Shown here in pieces: positions 12,590 through 62,465 of a stretch of DNA of 64,000 bases. This DNA comes from a bacterium (GTDB lineage Bacteria > Campylobacterota > Campylobacteria > Campylobacterales > Sulfurimonadaceae): positions 62,001 through 126,000 of the forward strand of contig JAHJJX010000019.1 in the NCBI GenBank assembly GCA_018822665.1, read 5' to 3'. Numbering within the stretch: position 1 is the first letter of the stretch; every line of letters starts with the position of its first letter. Both the position numbers and the translations under genes were made by a program. A model generated the notes under the pieces. That model did no database searches. It saw only the letters and a list, made by a program, of their open reading frames with translations, and was not told where the DNA came from.

Positions 12590-12617
12590 GAAGCTACAGA
12601 TATCTATTTGTAGCTTC
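12590..12617 (-). terminator. Possible terminator at the end of the GGDEF-EAL gene
   Basis: GAAGCTACA (12590-12598) and TGTAGCTTC (12609-12617) form an inverted repeat that overlaps the stop codon of the minus-strand gene. Only short T-stretches follow, so this is tentative. Confidence 0.35.
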
Positions 12618-14561
12618 TTGCGGTTCTCCAAGAAAAAACCCTTGTGTGCGACTTATCTTAAGATTCCTTACTTTTTCATATACTGTGCGACTATGAACAA
12701 ACTCAGCAATAGTCAAGATATTTAATCTTTGCGCAAAATCAACAATTGTTTCTACAACTTTTTGGGCATTTGTGTCTTTATCAAGATTTTTAATTAGTGT
12801 TCCATCAATCTTTATATAGTCAATATTCAGTTTAAGAAGATGTTCAAAATTTGAATAGCCAGAACCAAAATCATCAATGGCTATTCTGCAGCCAAGCGCT
12901 TTCATTTCACTGATGAATTGTGAAATCTCTTCATAATTCTCTATCCCTTCAGATTCCAGAATTTCAAAGACAATTTTATTTGCAACGTTATATTGTTTGA
13001 TTGTTTGTTTGATGCAATCTGTTATATCATTGCTGAGAATATCCTCAACAGATAAATTGATTGAAAAATCGTATGCGACATGTTCAAAATGTTTACAGCT
13101 TTTTTCAATCATAATTTTTGTCAACTTGCTGTAGAGTCTGCTTTTTTTTGCAGCATACAAAAAGTTATTGGGACCGATAACTTTGCCGTTGTCGTCAATG
13201 AGACGCATCAGGCATTCGTAACTTACGCATTTTTCTGATACATTGTCAAATATAGGCTGAAAATAAGGAACGATTTTATCTTTTTCAATTCCATTTTTAA
13301 GCTTTTTAACCCATTCCATATTATCTTTGTATTGCTCTTCTATATTTAATTTTTCATCATACATTAAAAAAGGTTTCTGTTCCTTCTTTGCTGACTTAAG
13401 CGCAATATCTGCTTTTTCCAAAGCCCGTCGTATCTGATAGGTGCCCCCAATAGAAACCCTGATACTAAACTCATTGTTATCATAATAAAAAACTATTTTT
13501 TCTATTTCATAAAGTAATTTTTGAACAGTTTGAATTAAGCTTTCTTTTGAGGGTTTTTCTATAAAAAGCAAAGTAAATTCATCGCCTGCGAGATGGTTGA
13601 GTTTTATATTATTGTCTGTTTCAAACATAAGATGCAATCGCTTGGAAAATTCTACCAAGATACTATCACCTGCTATATGCCCATAAAAGTCATTGATTTC
13701 TTTAAAATCATCAATATTTATTATAAGGAGTGCGGCATCGCTTAGATTGGCTAAGTCTTGTAGTAAACTAAGCCTATTAGGCAATCCTGTTAATGAATCT
13801 GTGTAAAGCTGATTGCGCAACTCTGATGTCTTTTCAGTTACTTTTTCTTCTAAAAATATATTAATATTTTCCTGTTCTTTTGAATATTGCGAAATTTTTT
13901 CTTGCATTTCATTAAGTGCATTTGATATTAATCCAATTTCATTATTTTCTGATGCAAAAGGAATTTTTATTTCTTTATTAGGCGAGTAGTTTTTGAGTGA
14001 ATTAGCTATTTTTCGAAGCGGTAAAAGAAGTTTTTTGACATAAAGACTAAATAATAAAAAAAGCAGGCTGCTTGCTAAAAGCATTATTGCCAGCAACTTG
14101 GTATATTTGTGTATTAACTCCTGATAGTTTTTGCTGGAATAAATAATAACTAGAGTACCAATACTTTTTTTAGAATTGGGTTGATAAATACGCTTTTTAA
14201 CAATAAAAGAGTCATTAAGCTCATCTTCGTATTTTTTAGATTTTGCTTCATGAATTGTTTGATTGTGTTTTAAAACTTTCACTGCCAAAATATTTTGATT
14301 TTCCATAAGCTGGAGTACAAGCTGATTGACGTTGCCCGGCATGTCAAGATAGATATTAAGTGCGATTAAGGGTTCAATGGTATTTGCAATTAAGCCAACT
14401 TTTTCAAGTTCAATATTATAAAAAGCTTCTTTGTTCATTTTCTCAAAAACGGCAAATATAATCAAGACGATAATAACGGACAGAAGAGAGATTGACAATA
14501 CTATTTTAGTCGAAAGAGAATTAATGTTTTTATTTTTCATATTAAAAAGCAAACCTTTCAT
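12594..14561 (-). CDS. Membrane-bound GGDEF-EAL protein with HAMP domain, YfiN-like sensor half
   Basis: The 655-residue protein has a membrane helix (about residues 18-40), a periplasmic region of about 110 residues (possibly CHASE8-like as in YfiN/TpbB), a second helix (about 156-177), a HAMP linker, a GGDEF domain and an EAL domain. The GGDEF domain keeps DSLTGLPNR and has AGDEF at the active site, which is compatible with cyclase activity. The EAL domain has ECLMR where EAL-LR is usual, keeps IDDFGSGYSNF, and has AEFVH for AEGVE, so phosphodiesterase activity is uncertain. It is the last gene of the acyltransferase-receptor-YfiR cassette, after a 164-base gap. The exact start is ambiguous (14561 or 14540). 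Confidence 0.87.
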   Translation of the reverse strand: MKGLLFNMKNKNINSLSTKIVLSISLLSVIIVLIIFAVFEKMNKEAFYNIELEKVGLIANTIEPLIALNIYLDMPGNVNQLVLQLMENQNILAVKVLKHNQTIHEAKSKKYEDELNDSFIVKKRIYQPNSKKSIGTLVIIYSSKNYQELIHKYTKLLAIMLLASSLLFLLFSLYVKKLLLPLRKIANSLKNYSPNKEIKIPFASENNEIGLISNALNEMQEKISQYSKEQENINIFLEEKVTEKTSELRNQLYTDSLTGLPNRLSLLQDLANLSDAALLIINIDDFKEINDFYGHIAGDSILVEFSKRLHLMFETDNNIKLNHLAGDEFTLLFIEKPSKESLIQTVQKLLYEIEKIVFYYDNNEFSIRVSIGGTYQIRRALEKADIALKSAKKEQKPFLMYDEKLNIEEQYKDNMEWVKKLKNGIEKDKIVPYFQPIFDNVSEKCVSYECLMRLIDDNGKVIGPNNFLYAAKKSRLYSKLTKIMIEKSCKHFEHVAYDFSINLSVEDILSNDITDCIKQTIKQYNVANKIVFEILESEGIENYEEISQFISEMKALGCRIAIDDFGSGYSNFEHLLKLNIDYIKIDGTLIKNLDKDTNAQKVVETIVDFAQRLNILTIAEFVHSRTVYEKVRNLKISRTQGFFLGEPQEATNRYL

Positions 14562-14725
14562 CTTGAGTACATCAGCACATTTAATAGGCTATAGTTTAGC
14601 ATATCTAAGCTAATTATAGTGTTTTTCCATGGGTTCAACAGCCGATATCTATGCGTATTGAACCAAAATATTCGTGTTCATTGAGAAATATACAACAATA
14701 AAAAATGATTAATTATATAAACAAT

Positions 14726-15271
14726 TTAACTATGCTCTTTATCAATGAATCTTACCATTTGCAGTAGAGAATCCACAAAGTCTATTTTTTTGCTATATAA
14801 ATTTTCTTTATTAACATAGAGGATTGTCGATTTTTCTATCATTAAAGAAAACAACAGGCCGTTTTTCAAATTTTCAATATCATAAGCAAAAGCTATAATT
14901 CCTTTTTCTTTAGCGATTTCTGCAACTTTTTGTATGTTTTCGTTTGAATTTAATACATATATTGCAGATGATTTTGTGGCATGGGAAAAATCTGAAAACT
15001 CTACTAAATTAACTGTATACTGATACTTGTCAAGGCGAGCCTGATGGCTGTCTTTTATAAATTTACGTACTTCTGAAGCTGCATTGTAATCATCTTTTTC
15101 GTAAACAACGGTATAGATAATTTTGCCCTCTATAAGTTTGTCGTTGAGCTTCTTGTCTAAGAGCATTATTTTTGGAAATATAGAAGCCTGCGCTTTTAAT
15201 AGCACCTCATTATAGGTATATCCATAGGCTATGTTTGCAAAAATGAAAAAAAGTATTATTATTTTCTTCAT
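14726..15271 (-). CDS. Periplasmic YfiR-like (DUF4154-like) protein
   Basis: The 181-residue protein begins with a signal peptide (MKKIIILFFIFANIAYG). The C-terminal part, from GIIAFAYDIENLKNGLLFSLMI through NKENLYSKKIDFVDSLLQMVRFID, follows the pattern of YfiR/DUF4154 proteins (a Gly- and Asp-containing turn, a hydrophobic strand pair, then an amphipathic helix ending near an Arg). The similarity is by eye and moderate. YfiR in Pseudomonas is a periplasmic repressor of the membrane diguanylate cyclase YfiN. Here the ATG directly follows the stop of the TonB-receptor gene with no gap, so they are surely cotranscribed. A membrane GGDEF-EAL gene follows, which supports the analogy. Confidence 0.6.
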   Translation of the reverse strand: MKKIIILFFIFANIAYGYTYNEVLLKAQASIFPKIMLLDKKLNDKLIEGKIIYTVVYEKDDYNAASEVRKFIKDSHQARLDKYQYTVNLVEFSDFSHATKSSAIYVLNSNENIQKVAEIAKEKGIIAFAYDIENLKNGLLFSLMIEKSTILYVNKENLYSKKIDFVDSLLQMVRFIDKEHS

Positions 15272-17374
15272 TTAAAACTCTTTTGTAAAAACTACGAGAA
15301 AATTTCTACTCTCTTGAGCATAATCTTCACTGTAGGTTTTTGGAGGAGATGGAAAAACAACATTTTCATTAAAAATATTTTTAATGCTGAGTGTGAGACT
15401 GTAATTATCTTTTTGATTTATATAATATAAAGATGTGTCAACGGTTGTGTAAGATTTTACTTTGTCTCGCACATCTCCGGCAATTCTTTCTTTTGACCCA
15501 ACATATTTCGCAATACCGCTCAATGATAATGCGTTATTTACGTTGTAAATATAGTACCCTTTAGCCAAATGATTCGCAATATTCGGTAATGATTGGGCTG
15601 TGCTTTCATCTTTTATGTATGAGGTGCCATCTACATAAGAATAATTAAGATAAAACTGGTCTCTTGAAGATATATTCCCCTTATATTCAAGTTCAAGACC
15701 ATAAATATCTGTATCGACAACATTTCTATATTCAGGATTTGCAGAGGAGTTGTATATTTGATCTTTATTAAATAAATAGAATATATTTGCTTGAAGATAG
15801 TTGTCACTTGAAAATTTCTTAATATATGCCGCTTCAAATGCTTCTACACGTTCAGGTTTTAGATTTGTACTTCCTACTCTTGCGTGGTTGTTCATAGTAA
15901 ACATCTCTTGCCATGAGGCATTTCTATGTGAACGACTGTAGATAGTTTTAAAAATATTTGTGGGGTCTTGTTGATACACCATGGAGACTCTAGGTTCAAA
16001 TCCTGCATCAATATAAGAAGTAGTTTCATAATTAAAACCATATATAAAATTAAGTTTGCTATTGAATTGATATTCATCCTGAAGTGAAAATATAAGCGTA
16101 TCACGTTTTGCGTTTTTATCAAAAAATGGGTATGTGTCTGTATAATCAAAAGGTTCAGGAGTACCCGTTGTCCAGTTGGATGTTTTTGAAACCATATTTA
16201 CAGTTTCTTCTTTGATAAAGCGGTATCCTGTTGTAAAAATATGTTTATCAAAACCACTGTATTTAAGATAAGCAGACTGGTATATTGTTCTTTGTTCTGC
16301 CAAGTGTTCCCCGTAAGCTCCATCCAAAAATGTAACAGGAACAATACTTGAAGGATATACAGTCATGTCAATAAACTGTAATCCATCGGGCAGTAATTTT
16401 GTTTTAGAATCAAATGTATCGTATTTCAAACCTGCTTTTATATCAATGTCAAAATTATTAAGCGTGTTGTCGTACCCTAATTCTATGTATCGACTTGGCA
16501 GTTTTACTCTATCTTTATCTTGGGGCAATGCAAGATTAATTCCATAAGCACTTCCTTGCGTATGTTCAAGCATACGTGCTTTCATTGAAAAATTTTGATA
16601 TTCCAGATTCAAGCCGAGGGAATATTCTTTTAACCATAAAGGGGCATCTCCTGATTGGGAGAGTGCGGTATTGTCAATTAAACCCGGAATACTCATTACA
16701 CCCTGTGATAATCCATCCGGACCCGATGGTGCGTTTTTATCATCTTCCTGATAGAAAAAATCTACAAAAATCTTCAAGTCATCGGTTTTATACGTCTTGA
16801 CAAAGCCGCCCATTTTGTATTTGCTGGAACCTGCTTTAAGGAGGATTTTATCGTTGGATTCAAATCCATCAAAATCTTCTGTATAGGTAATAACATTTAT
16901 AGAGCCTGCATACGCATTTACACCATCCGTTTTACTGCCGGGTCCACGGACAACTTCAATTCTCTTTATCATTTCTATAGGAAAAGAGAGATATTCGGAG
17001 TAAGCATCTAAAAATACGTTATTAACAAGAAATCCATCTATAAAAAGTTTGGATTGTCCCGATGCAAGGGGATTTGAGCCTCTGAATATTGGGCTTTGAA
17101 TATTAGCGTTATCTGTTGCCATATCAAGCCCCGGTACTAAGCTCAGTGCTTCTTTGAGGTTTGAGACACCGAGTTTTTCCAGCTCTTTTCCATAAAACAC
17201 CGAAATGATATAAGGCTGGTAATGTTCATTTTGTTTTGTCACGGTTGCAACTTCATTATAATGCTGCATATCTCCCGATATAGATGCCAATATATCATCC
17301 GTTTGGGCATGCAAGTTAGAATAAAAAATACATAAAAAAAATAGTAATGTATTTTTTAGTAACTTATTGAACAT
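15272..17374 (-). CDS. TonB-dependent outer-membrane receptor
   Basis: A 700-residue receptor with signal peptide (cleavage probably after HAQ near residue 24), a plug domain (about 50-170: YGKELEKLGVSNLKEALSLVPGLD, FIDGFLVNN, IKRIEVVRGPGS, AGSINVIT) and a 22-strand-type barrel ending in the aromatic terminus FLVVFTKEF. NEVATVTKQ soon after the mature N-terminus is a possible TonB box. The ligand is unknown: no siderophore, cobalamin or metal gene is adjacent. It overlaps the end of the acyltransferase gene by 11 bases and abuts the YfiR-like gene. This placement suggests ligand perception coupled to c-di-GMP signalling rather than nutrient uptake alone; that is inference. Confidence 0.92.
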   Translation of the reverse strand: MFNKLLKNTLLFFLCIFYSNLHAQTDDILASISGDMQHYNEVATVTKQNEHYQPYIISVFYGKELEKLGVSNLKEALSLVPGLDMATDNANIQSPIFRGSNPLASGQSKLFIDGFLVNNVFLDAYSEYLSFPIEMIKRIEVVRGPGSKTDGVNAYAGSINVITYTEDFDGFESNDKILLKAGSSKYKMGGFVKTYKTDDLKIFVDFFYQEDDKNAPSGPDGLSQGVMSIPGLIDNTALSQSGDAPLWLKEYSLGLNLEYQNFSMKARMLEHTQGSAYGINLALPQDKDRVKLPSRYIELGYDNTLNNFDIDIKAGLKYDTFDSKTKLLPDGLQFIDMTVYPSSIVPVTFLDGAYGEHLAEQRTIYQSAYLKYSGFDKHIFTTGYRFIKEETVNMVSKTSNWTTGTPEPFDYTDTYPFFDKNAKRDTLIFSLQDEYQFNSKLNFIYGFNYETTSYIDAGFEPRVSMVYQQDPTNIFKTIYSRSHRNASWQEMFTMNNHARVGSTNLKPERVEAFEAAYIKKFSSDNYLQANIFYLFNKDQIYNSSANPEYRNVVDTDIYGLELEYKGNISSRDQFYLNYSYVDGTSYIKDESTAQSLPNIANHLAKGYYIYNVNNALSLSGIAKYVGSKERIAGDVRDKVKSYTTVDTSLYYINQKDNYSLTLSIKNIFNENVVFPSPPKTYSEDYAQESRNFLVVFTKEF

Positions 17375-17957
17375 GCTGCTTATTCCAATTTTCTATTATT
17401 TCAGGATTTTCATCCCCTAATACTTGCGTATACAAAATACAAGGATACCGCTTGCACATAAATTTATGTATCTGCTCCTCCCCAATGGTATCATAATGAA
17501 TTTTAAACATTTTTAAAAGTCTCAAAAAGCTTCCCTCTAGTGAGCCGTAAGAGTATTTTATACCTAATTCCATCATTTTTGTATATAGCGGTTCTTTAAG
17601 ATGATGGATGATTTTTTTTGTTGTTTTGAGGTCTCTATATTTTGTATCAATAAATATTCTTGACATCTCCCCAAGTTTATCCCTTTCAAAGACATCTTTG
17701 TCAAATACTAAACTTTCTTCAGTCGGATAACCAAGCGGTGAGTTGTGTATGAGCCTTACGGTTGCGCATATTTCTCCATCTTCATCTAATACTGCAAATT
17801 GAACCGCATACTCATCATAAATATCAATTTCTTGTTCATTTTGAAGATTATTTGCTTGTATATATTCTTGATACTCATTGAAAACAATTTTATATCTAAA
17901 CGCAAATACTTTTTTCAGTAACTCACTGTCTTTAACTTCTAAAAATCTAAAATCCAT
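17364..17957 (-). CDS. LuxI/FeeM-like N-acyltransferase (autoinducer-synthase-like GNAT fold)
   Basis: The protein is 197 residues from ATG 17957, chosen because a perfect AGGAGG precedes it by 5 bases; the open frame extends 12 codons upstream without support. The pattern matches acyl-homoserine-lactone synthases and N-acyl amino acid synthases: Arg21 in FRYKIVF, Asp45 and Asp48 in EIDIYDEYA, Arg68 in ATVRLI, and Glu97 and Arg100 in GEMSRIFID. These correspond to conserved LuxI residues; the conserved LuxI Trp is replaced (NEYQEY). Such enzymes join an acyl chain to an amine-bearing substrate. The product here is unknown. It is first gene of an operon with a TonB receptor, and no LuxR gene is nearby. 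A generic GNAT role cannot be excluded. Confidence 0.75.
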   Translation of the reverse strand: MDFRFLEVKDSELLKKVFAFRYKIVFNEYQEYIQANNLQNEQEIDIYDEYAVQFAVLDEDGEICATVRLIHNSPLGYPTEESLVFDKDVFERDKLGEMSRIFIDTKYRDLKTTKKIIHHLKEPLYTKMMELGIKYSYGSLEGSFLRLLKMFKIHYDTIGEEQIHKFMCKRYPCILYTQVLGDENPEIIENWNKQHVQ

Positions 17958-18013
17958 ATTGCCTCCTTTTTTAAATATGCAAATAATATACATTCATGTT
18001 TATTATCAAAATT

Positions 18014-18019
18014 ATTATA
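18014..18019 (-). promoter_or_regulatory. Probable -10 box of the acyltransferase-receptor operon
   Basis: TATAAT on the minus strand about 57 bases before the chosen ATG, in context GTAGTATAATAA. The repeated TATCACAAT elements lie immediately upstream. Confidence 0.5.
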
Positions 18020-18041
18020 CTACATAAATTAGCTAAAATGG

Positions 18042-18094
18042 GTGATATTGTGATATTTTTTATTGAAAAAAAGCTTCTAGTATCACAATTGTGA
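18042..18094. promoter_or_regulatory. Operator-like cluster of TATCACAAT half-sites upstream of the acyltransferase operon
   Basis: GTGATATTGTGATATT (18042-18057) contains tandem half-sites. TCACAATTGTGA (18083-18094) is a perfect 12-base palindrome. Both share the half-site TATCACAAT. The first overlaps where the -35 would lie relative to the TATAAT at 18014-18019, and the second lies about 40 bases further upstream. This is the arrangement of a regulator binding site; the regulator is unknown. Confidence 0.4.
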
Positions 18095-18162
18095 ATATTC
18101 TTTGATTTGTGTAAGACAGAGAACAGCGTGGTATAGGCAAAAAGAAAAAAGTTTTAAGTAGT

Positions 18163-18195
18163 ACAACTAAAAAGAACAGCATACTTTTTAGTTGT
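18163..18195 (-). terminator. Terminator of pepA
   Basis: ACAACTAAAAAG (18163-18174) pairs perfectly with CTTTTTAGTTGT (18184-18195) around a 9-base loop. It stands 12 bases past the pepA stop on the minus strand, followed there by a T-rich stretch. Confidence 0.75.
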
Positions 18196-18206
18196 AAATA
18201 ATTATA

Positions 18207-61332: not shown

Positions 61333-62465
61333 TGGCAACAAGAGAAATTATATCAACTGGTAATGAATTAGCTGCAATCGCAGCGGTAGATGCTGGATGT
61401 TTATTTTTTGGTGGATATCCACTTACACCATCAAGTGAAGTAATGCATGAAATCTCTGATCTTCTACCAAAGATTGGCGGTGTAGCAATACAAATGGAAG
61501 ATGAAATAGGTGGTATTTGTGCTGTTATCGGTGCAGCTATGGCAGGACAAAGATCTTTAACTGCAACTTCAGGTCCTGGTATGTCACTAAAGGCTGAAAA
61601 CTTAGGTCTTGCACAAATGGCAGAAGTACCTTTGGTTTGTATAAATGTTATGCGTGGTGGTCCATCAACTGGTCTTCCGACTCGTGTATCTCAAGGCGAT
61701 ATTCTTCAATCTAAAAATCCATCACATGGGGATTACAAATCAATCACTTTGTGTGCAGGTTCATTAGCTGAGTGTTATACTGAAACAGTACGAGCTTTTA
61801 ATCTTGCAGATAGATTTATGCAACCGGTTATCGTTTTACTAGATGAGACTATCGGTCACATGCATGGTAAAGCTGATATTCCAACTGCAGAAGACGTCAA
61901 GGCTGGCATTGTTCCAAGAAAAAGATTTGACGGCGCACCGGAAGATTATTTTCCGTATGAGTGTGAGCATGATCAACCAGCAGTATTAAATCCAATGTTC
62001 GAAGGTTATAGATACCACTTTACAGGTCTTCACCATGATAGAAAAGGATTCCCAACTGAAGAGATTGAAACTTGCAGAAAATTAATTCAAAGATTAGAAG
62101 ACAAAGTTGAACTACATAAAGATGAACTTGAATCTTATGAAGAATTTATGATGGATGATGCTGATATAATGATTATCGCTTATGGTTCAGTTTCACTTGC
62201 CGCTAAAGAGTCAATAAGACACTTAAGAAAAGAAGGTATTAAAGCTGGTTTATTCAGACCGATTACTATCTGGCCTTCACCAGCTGAAAAAATAAAAGAG
62301 CATACAGATAAAATTGAAAAAGTTCTCGTTGTTGAGCTCAATATTGGTCAATACCACAGTGAAATTCAACGTGCTGCAGCAAGACTTGATATAGCTGGTT
62401 TATTTAAAGTAAACGGCAGACCAATATCTCCTTATGAGATTGTAAATAAAGTAAAGGAATTATAA
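61332..62465 (+). CDS. oorA: 2-oxoglutarate:ferredoxin oxidoreductase, alpha subunit
   Basis: The 377-residue alpha subunit contains the pyrimidine-binding domain (FGGYPLTPSSEVMHEIS, QMEDEIGGICAVIGAAMAG, TATSGPGMSLKAENLGLA near 75-92, RGGPSTGLPTRVSQGDILQ) and the C-terminal domain (IAYGSVSLAAKESIRHLR, GLFRPITIWPSP). These are standard for OorA/KorA. It is the second gene of oorDABC, with oorB following after one base. Confidence 0.97.
   Translation: MATREIISTGNELAAIAAVDAGCLFFGGYPLTPSSEVMHEISDLLPKIGGVAIQMEDEIGGICAVIGAAMAGQRSLTATSGPGMSLKAENLGLAQMAEVPLVCINVMRGGPSTGLPTRVSQGDILQSKNPSHGDYKSITLCAGSLAECYTETVRAFNLADRFMQPVIVLLDETIGHMHGKADIPTAEDVKAGIVPRKRFDGAPEDYFPYECEHDQPAVLNPMFEGYRYHFTGLHHDRKGFPTEEIETCRKLIQRLEDKVELHKDELESYEEFMMDDADIMIIAYGSVSLAAKESIRHLRKEGIKAGLFRPITIWPSPAEKIKEHTDKIEKVLVVELNIGQYHSEIQRAAARLDIAGLFKVNGRPISPYEIVNKVKEL

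Follow-up and report, generated by a model that had tools for sequence, protein, structure and literature searches.

The locus raises the question of whether an acyltransferase (AT), a TonB-dependent receptor, a YfiR-like protein and a GGDEF-EAL protein encoded side by side allow a cell to make a small molecule and to perceive it. An initial annotation of the 64,000-nucleotide stretch of DNA analysed here (the window) had read the genes in this way, with the AT as maker of an acyl signal or ligand, the receptor as its binding site at the cell surface and the YfiR-like protein as the link to a c-di-GMP enzyme.

The layout on which that reading was built is present in the window: four minus-strand ORFs (Table 1), an overlap of 11 nt between those of the AT and the receptor, a receptor stop (15272) that abuts the YfiR-like start (15271) and a gap of 164 nt before the GGDEF-EAL gene. 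The gap becomes approximately 185 nt if the last gene starts at an internal Met, and in relatives its start is the Met equivalent to 14540. For the AT, the ATG at 17957 is preceded by a AAAAGGAGG ribosome-binding site and agrees with the N-termini of homologues; the residue numbers of the initial annotation fit this start, and translation from the ATG further upstream (17993) is less probable. No terminator-like site was found on the minus strand between the four genes, and the receptor and the YfiR-like protein carry signal peptides, as judged by eye. Such a four-gene arrangement is far above chance expectation.

Table 1. Features of the cassette in the window, and carboxyl methyltransferase genes beside related acyltransferases at other loci
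Feature	Position	Strand	Basis
AT, acyltransferase (197 aa) in the superfamily of LuxI/FeeM enzymes (AHL synthases and N-acyl amino acid synthases); predicted to make a signal in the cytoplasm	17364..17957	-	PF13444, AF2 model, LasI/FeeM match
TonB-dependent outer-membrane receptor, 700 aa; predicted ligand receptor	15272..17374	-	PF07715 Plug, no STN match
YfiR-like periplasmic protein, 181 aa; predicted relay from receptor to inner-membrane enzyme	14726..15271	-	YfiR fold match
GGDEF-EAL membrane protein carrying a HAMP domain and a periplasmic loop; predicted c-di-GMP phosphodiesterase	12594..14561	-	AGDEF degenerate, EAL catalytic residues intact
Intergenic region upstream of AT, after leucyl aminopeptidase gene; presumed cassette promoter	17958..18206	-	no Fur-like box
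LCM-family (PF04072) gene directly beside an AHL-synthase/FeeM-superfamily acyltransferase	L102:5316-6203, L061:9396-10283, L188:4957-5844, L199:4920-5792		

The first gene had been described as a LuxI/FeeM-type acyltransferase, and profile and fold comparisons agree, with AHL synthases and FeeM matched rather than unrelated GNAT families alone. The window AT scored 33.7 bits against PF13444 (Acetyltransf_5, LuxI/FeeM/OlsB-like GNAT), above the gathering cut-off of 22.4, and both PF13444 and TIGR03694 were matched by 28/28 AT homologues (the window AT counted in), the FeeM model by 20/28 and PF00765 (Autoind_synth) by 19/28. In the proposed comparison with LuxI, FeeM and exosortase-associated profiles, the window AT itself stayed below the cut-offs of TIGR03694 (56 bits against 112) and the FeeM model (23.8 against 27), gave no PF00765 match and lacked the LuxI Trp before the D45/D48 motif. 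As it is below these three thresholds it is filed in neither enzyme family and forms a separate branch of the superfamily. The best six matches of the AT family profile in the PDB were all AHL synthases. The AlphaFold (AF2) model of the AT (pLDDT 94) has a full-length AHL-synthase fold, with 186 of 197 residues aligned to LasI at Z 19.2 and further end-to-end matches to TofI (18.9), BjaI (17.6) and FeeM (17.6); plain GNATs were behind these, at 16.6 for the best and no more than 15 for the others. R21, E43, D45, Y47, D48, E97, S99 and R100 were invariant in the 28 homologues. Of the residues pointed out initially at LuxI positions, Arg21, Asp45, Asp48, Glu97 and Arg100 belong to this invariant set and Arg68 is conserved (alignment, by eye). 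E97 and R100 fall within an E-x-S-R motif common to RpaI in the profile alignment, and a catalytic role of the conserved Glu has been described in N-acyl amino acid synthases (PMC4897644). Membership of the AHL-synthase/N-acyl-amino-acid-synthase superfamily is therefore supported; OlsB models gave weak matches in a few family members. LuxR (PF03472) and exosortase (PF09721), with which such enzymes are usually paired, were both absent from 41 relatives, and pairing of the AT with either was rejected on this count. FeeM-like acyltransferases of about 250 aa were also noted at L198:5777-6535, L190:5793-6551 and L201:5417-6157, the first two adjoining response-regulator-like genes.

The YfiR-like assignment holds for the fold and not for the sequence models. 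The AlphaFold model (pLDDT 89) aligned over 142-144 residues with solved YfiR structures (Z 13.1-13.7), the best match being 144 of the 147 residues of 4zhu at 13.7, and the window member is below every YfiR sequence model, with 13.4 bits against a cut-off of 85 for NF053586 and no match to PF13689, a family matched by 11 of 38 YfiR-like members. Halves of ABC substrate-binding proteins scored level with YfiR against the same model, a tie that fits descent from ligand-binding proteins and points to no ligand. The GGDEF-EAL protein has two transmembrane segments (residues ~13-44 and ~152-180) and is made up of a periplasmic loop, HAMP, GGDEF and EAL domains. The E, N, E, DD, K, E and Q catalytic motifs of the EAL domain were kept across about 60 cassette proteins, and the GG[D/E]EF signature is replaced by AGDEF in the window and SGDEF in most family members, some of which lack its second Gly. 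The c-di-GMP enzyme claimed initially is thus present, but since its EAL catalytic residues are kept and its GGDEF is degenerate, the output is probably a phosphodiesterase rather than a cyclase. At the probable position of the YfiN 'AAVVF' motif there is only a hydrophobic NILAVKV-like strand.

The receptor has a Plug domain (PF07715, 1.3e-14) and a TonB-box-like N-terminus, and no N-terminal signalling domain (STN) was matched in it. Its nearest solved structures are CirA and BtuB. It scored below the cut-off of every NCBIfam siderophore, B12 or heme model, including TIGR01783 for TonB siderophore receptors (103.9 bits against 223.5). Consensus scans, which may miss iron control, found no Fur-like box above shuffles upstream of the cassette, and of the 31 Fur-like palindromes genome-wide (9 in the control) none lay at the cassette; Fur control was rejected on these scans. 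A known siderophore or metal receptor under Fur, which would have spoken against the initial annotation, thus finds no support here. One Fur-box-like palindrome, TATAATGATTATC, with one mismatch, lies at 62165-62177 of the window, distant from the cassette.

If the four genes work together they should travel together, and the initial annotation had made its reading depend on this. A co-occurrence search found AT, receptor and YfiR-like genes with a c-di-GMP gene in Sulfurimonadaceae, Nitratiruptoraceae, Hydrogenimonadaceae and Arcobacteraceae, the AT being kept with the others across genera and families; the hosts are sulfur- and hydrogen-oxidising bacteria of vents and sediments. Within the family, 31 of 121 genomes had the AT, nearly always with a YfiR-like gene about 2.07 kb downstream. 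Over a set of 80 loci (duplicates counted in), AT and receptor ORFs overlapped or were at most 20 nt apart in 74. Gene maps gave the order AT-receptor-YfiR-GGDEF/EAL in Sulfurimonas, Nitratiruptoraceae and Hydrogenimonadaceae. Sulfuricurvum has overlaps of 1-4 nt among the first three genes, whereas its GGDEF-EAL gene lies divergently on their other side and is not co-transcribed; in Sulfuricurvum relatives a membrane protein of 486 aa that gives a weak GGDEF-type match sits in the AT slot (L160:5309-6769 and L159:5351-6811). Flanks, named by eye, differ per genus or family, with pepA in Sulfurimonas, flagellar genes in Sulfuricurvum and folD/lepB in Nitratiruptoraceae.

An even sample of 298 Campylobacterota genomes gave a similar picture. 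A strong intact AT was found in 18, of which 15 were linked (same strand as a YfiR-like gene and about 2.05 kb upstream of it), one lay at a contig edge and two were unlinked (G188 and G387). A YfiR-like gene was present in 16 of these 18 genomes and in 14 of the 280 others (Fisher p 1.6e-16, a value that ignores phylogeny), the AT genomes without it being G188, which is complete, and G085, where the AT is at a contig edge. The solitary AT of G188, of the Hydrogenimonadaceae group (L187:7138-9520), has as its divergent neighbour a membrane protein that weakly matches a GGDEF-EAL profile. The dependency is one-sided: an AT mostly comes with a YfiR-like gene, and not the reverse. Cassettes without an AT or with a decayed one are common, so the receptor can work without a self-made ligand or sense something else; in the close relatives L071 (G075) and L077 (G053) the AT is decayed and the receptor, YfiR-like and GGDEF-EAL genes are intact. 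Most of the AT-less genomes checked had no AT elsewhere, and AT presence required 14 changes on the receptor tree. Because the receptor-YfiR-output triad is also found without it, the AT is an accessory to a wider sensing module. A synthase-receptor pair that has 'listener' lineages would be expected to leave this one-sided pattern, which equally shows a receptor independent of the AT. AT-less YfiR-like cassettes with a histidine kinase output in place of GGDEF-EAL were seen at L202:3724-7641, L200:5998-7978 and L145:3119-7037, with a TonB receptor in those of L202 and L145. A search of genome contigs with a single AT protein gave no match, and since no part of the full AT alignment was conserved enough to be used, the contig scan relied on the receptor alignment; tblastn of plasmids with the AT and the YfiR-like protein gave no match either. 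One 5.2-Mb, apparently mixed bin (L094) was left out as evidence for another phylum.

In two genomes (G046 and G387) the cassette lacks an AT and an AT lies on another contig, preceded by a gene for a PF04072 (LCM) carboxyl methyltransferase. These two ATs share one well-supported clade with the cassette-linked ATs of L101 and L102, and at L102 the LCM gene heads a five-gene cassette, LCM-AT-receptor-YfiR-GGDEF/EAL. Strong LCM relatives occurred in only two of the 298 genomes, each adjoining a superfamily AT (G387, and G314 with a FeeM-like one). A carboxyl methyltransferase gene beside the AT in some relatives hints that the product of the AT may, like N-acyl amino acids, have a free carboxylate.

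Pairwise protein distances among 60 cassettes correlated at 0.84-0.93. Partial correlations were highest for AT-receptor (0.57-0.60), receptor-YfiR (0.50) and YfiR-GGDEF/EAL (0.56-0.62); the remaining pairs gave values between about zero and 0.2, and the AT-receptor value dropped to 0.2-0.3 in some subsets. They trace the chain AT-receptor-YfiR-GGDEF/EAL and so lend it support, although this is also the usual gene order and the values are confounded by shared phylogeny.

We propose that the cassette is, on balance, an autocrine or paracrine signalling circuit. The AT would acylate a small amine, most probably an amino acid, to give an amphiphilic N-acyl compound, a product class suggested by its superfamily and by the carboxyl methyltransferase partner in some relatives. 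The compound would leave the cell and be bound at the surface by the TonB-dependent receptor, and receptor occupancy or imported ligand may then alter binding of the YfiR-like protein to the periplasmic domain of the GGDEF-EAL protein. By analogy, the receptor would fill the outer-membrane place held in YfiBNR by YfiB, which sequesters YfiR (PMC3375315). A change in c-di-GMP hydrolysis would in turn change attachment or motility. Computed support comes from the superfamily and fold of the AT, the YfiR fold, the retained catalytic residues and the linkage across families. We advance more tentatively, as a plausible but not the expected outcome, a quorum- or self-sensing version in which the ligand is an N-acyl amino acid (a methyl ester in some lineages) with a dedicated surface receptor, the YfiR-fold protein passes the signal directly to c-di-GMP hydrolysis, and receptor-only 'listener' lineages have lost the synthase.

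Hydrophobic acyl signals often pass membranes without a TonB receptor, which counts against signalling, and importing is the usual job of such receptors. Perhaps the AT makes an amphiphilic metallophore, surfactant or other public good, the receptor retrieves this product with its load of metal or nutrient and the YfiR-like and GGDEF-EAL proteins only report uptake. The distant similarity of the receptor to CirA, BtuB and the TonB-siderophore model would fit such an acquisition module, and N-acyl tyrosines are known surfactants (PMC4897644). We nevertheless consider it unlikely, as the receptor is under all siderophore cut-offs, the cassette has no inner-membrane transporter and there is no Fur-like box upstream in a genome with an excess of such sites.

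Another explanation, to which we would give an equally low probability, is that the AT is an effector or housekeeping enzyme, for aminolipid or surface acylation, co-expressed with a sensor whose external compound is unrelated to it. PF13444 does cover ornithine N-acyltransferases, a few AT members match OlsB models weakly, and the receptor-YfiR-output triad occurs without the AT and with histidine-kinase outputs; however, the AT heads the operon, is rare outside cassette genomes and follows the receptor in protein distance more than the output. That the operon is accidental or neutral, preserved through vertical descent, is already disfavoured and would surprise us: flanking genes such as pepA or the flagellar genes are indeed also conserved within a genus, but the linkage is kept between differing flanks in four or more families and survives rearrangement of the GGDEF-EAL gene.

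Campylobacterota dominate many vent and sulfidic biofilms, and no AHL-type signalling circuit in this phylum was found in the open-access literature searched. If the signalling circuit is real, an acyl signal perceived through a surface TonB receptor and a YfiR relay, without a cytoplasmic LuxR, would be a new route, and YfiR modules would gain a defined ligand input. It would also offer a function for N-acyl amino acids, whose role in physiology has been called unclear (PMC4897644). A compact cassette, it lends itself to tests in non-pathogens.

Several known systems share parts with the cassette. With the N-acyl amino acid synthases (FeeM and the PEP-CTERM/exosortase-associated TIGR03694 enzymes), which NAS-PilZ fusions tie to c-di-GMP (PMC4897644), the AT has in common its fold, PF13444, the catalytic Glu and a presumed acyl-ACP/acyl-CoA chemistry, but the window AT is below both model cut-offs, its relatives lack an exosortase and it is linked to a TonB receptor and a YfiR-like gene. 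With LuxI/LuxR quorum sensing it shares the AHL-synthase fold and the R..D..D..R..E..R residue set, whereas the LuxI Trp and a PF00765 match are missing from the window AT, the relatives have no LuxR-type receptor and perception is proposed to take place at the cell surface. YfiBNR of Pseudomonas aeruginosa and the modular YfiR-YfiN[PAS] systems likewise combine a periplasmic YfiR-fold protein with a membrane protein that has a periplasmic domain, HAMP and GGDEF or GGDEF-EAL; here a TonB receptor stands in place of the YfiB lipoprotein (neither the four genes nor those that recurrently flank them include an ORF for a YfiB-type OmpA/Pal lipoprotein), and a dedicated acyltransferase is added. 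YfiN differs from the probable phosphodiesterase of the cassette, although the survey section of PMC3375315 describes distant YfiR-YfiN systems that have lost yfiB and have GGDEF-EAL or kinase outputs; that section mentions neither a TonB receptor nor an acyltransferase. Nothing relevant on the TonB-YfiR-acyltransferase combination was found in the open-access literature, so this absence is weak evidence. FecA/FpvA-type cell-surface signalling also uses an outer-membrane TonB receptor, here proposed to signal, but the cassette has no N-terminal signalling domain, FecR or sigma factor and its output is c-di-GMP metabolism. The parts are each of a known kind, and it is their combination that appears to be new.
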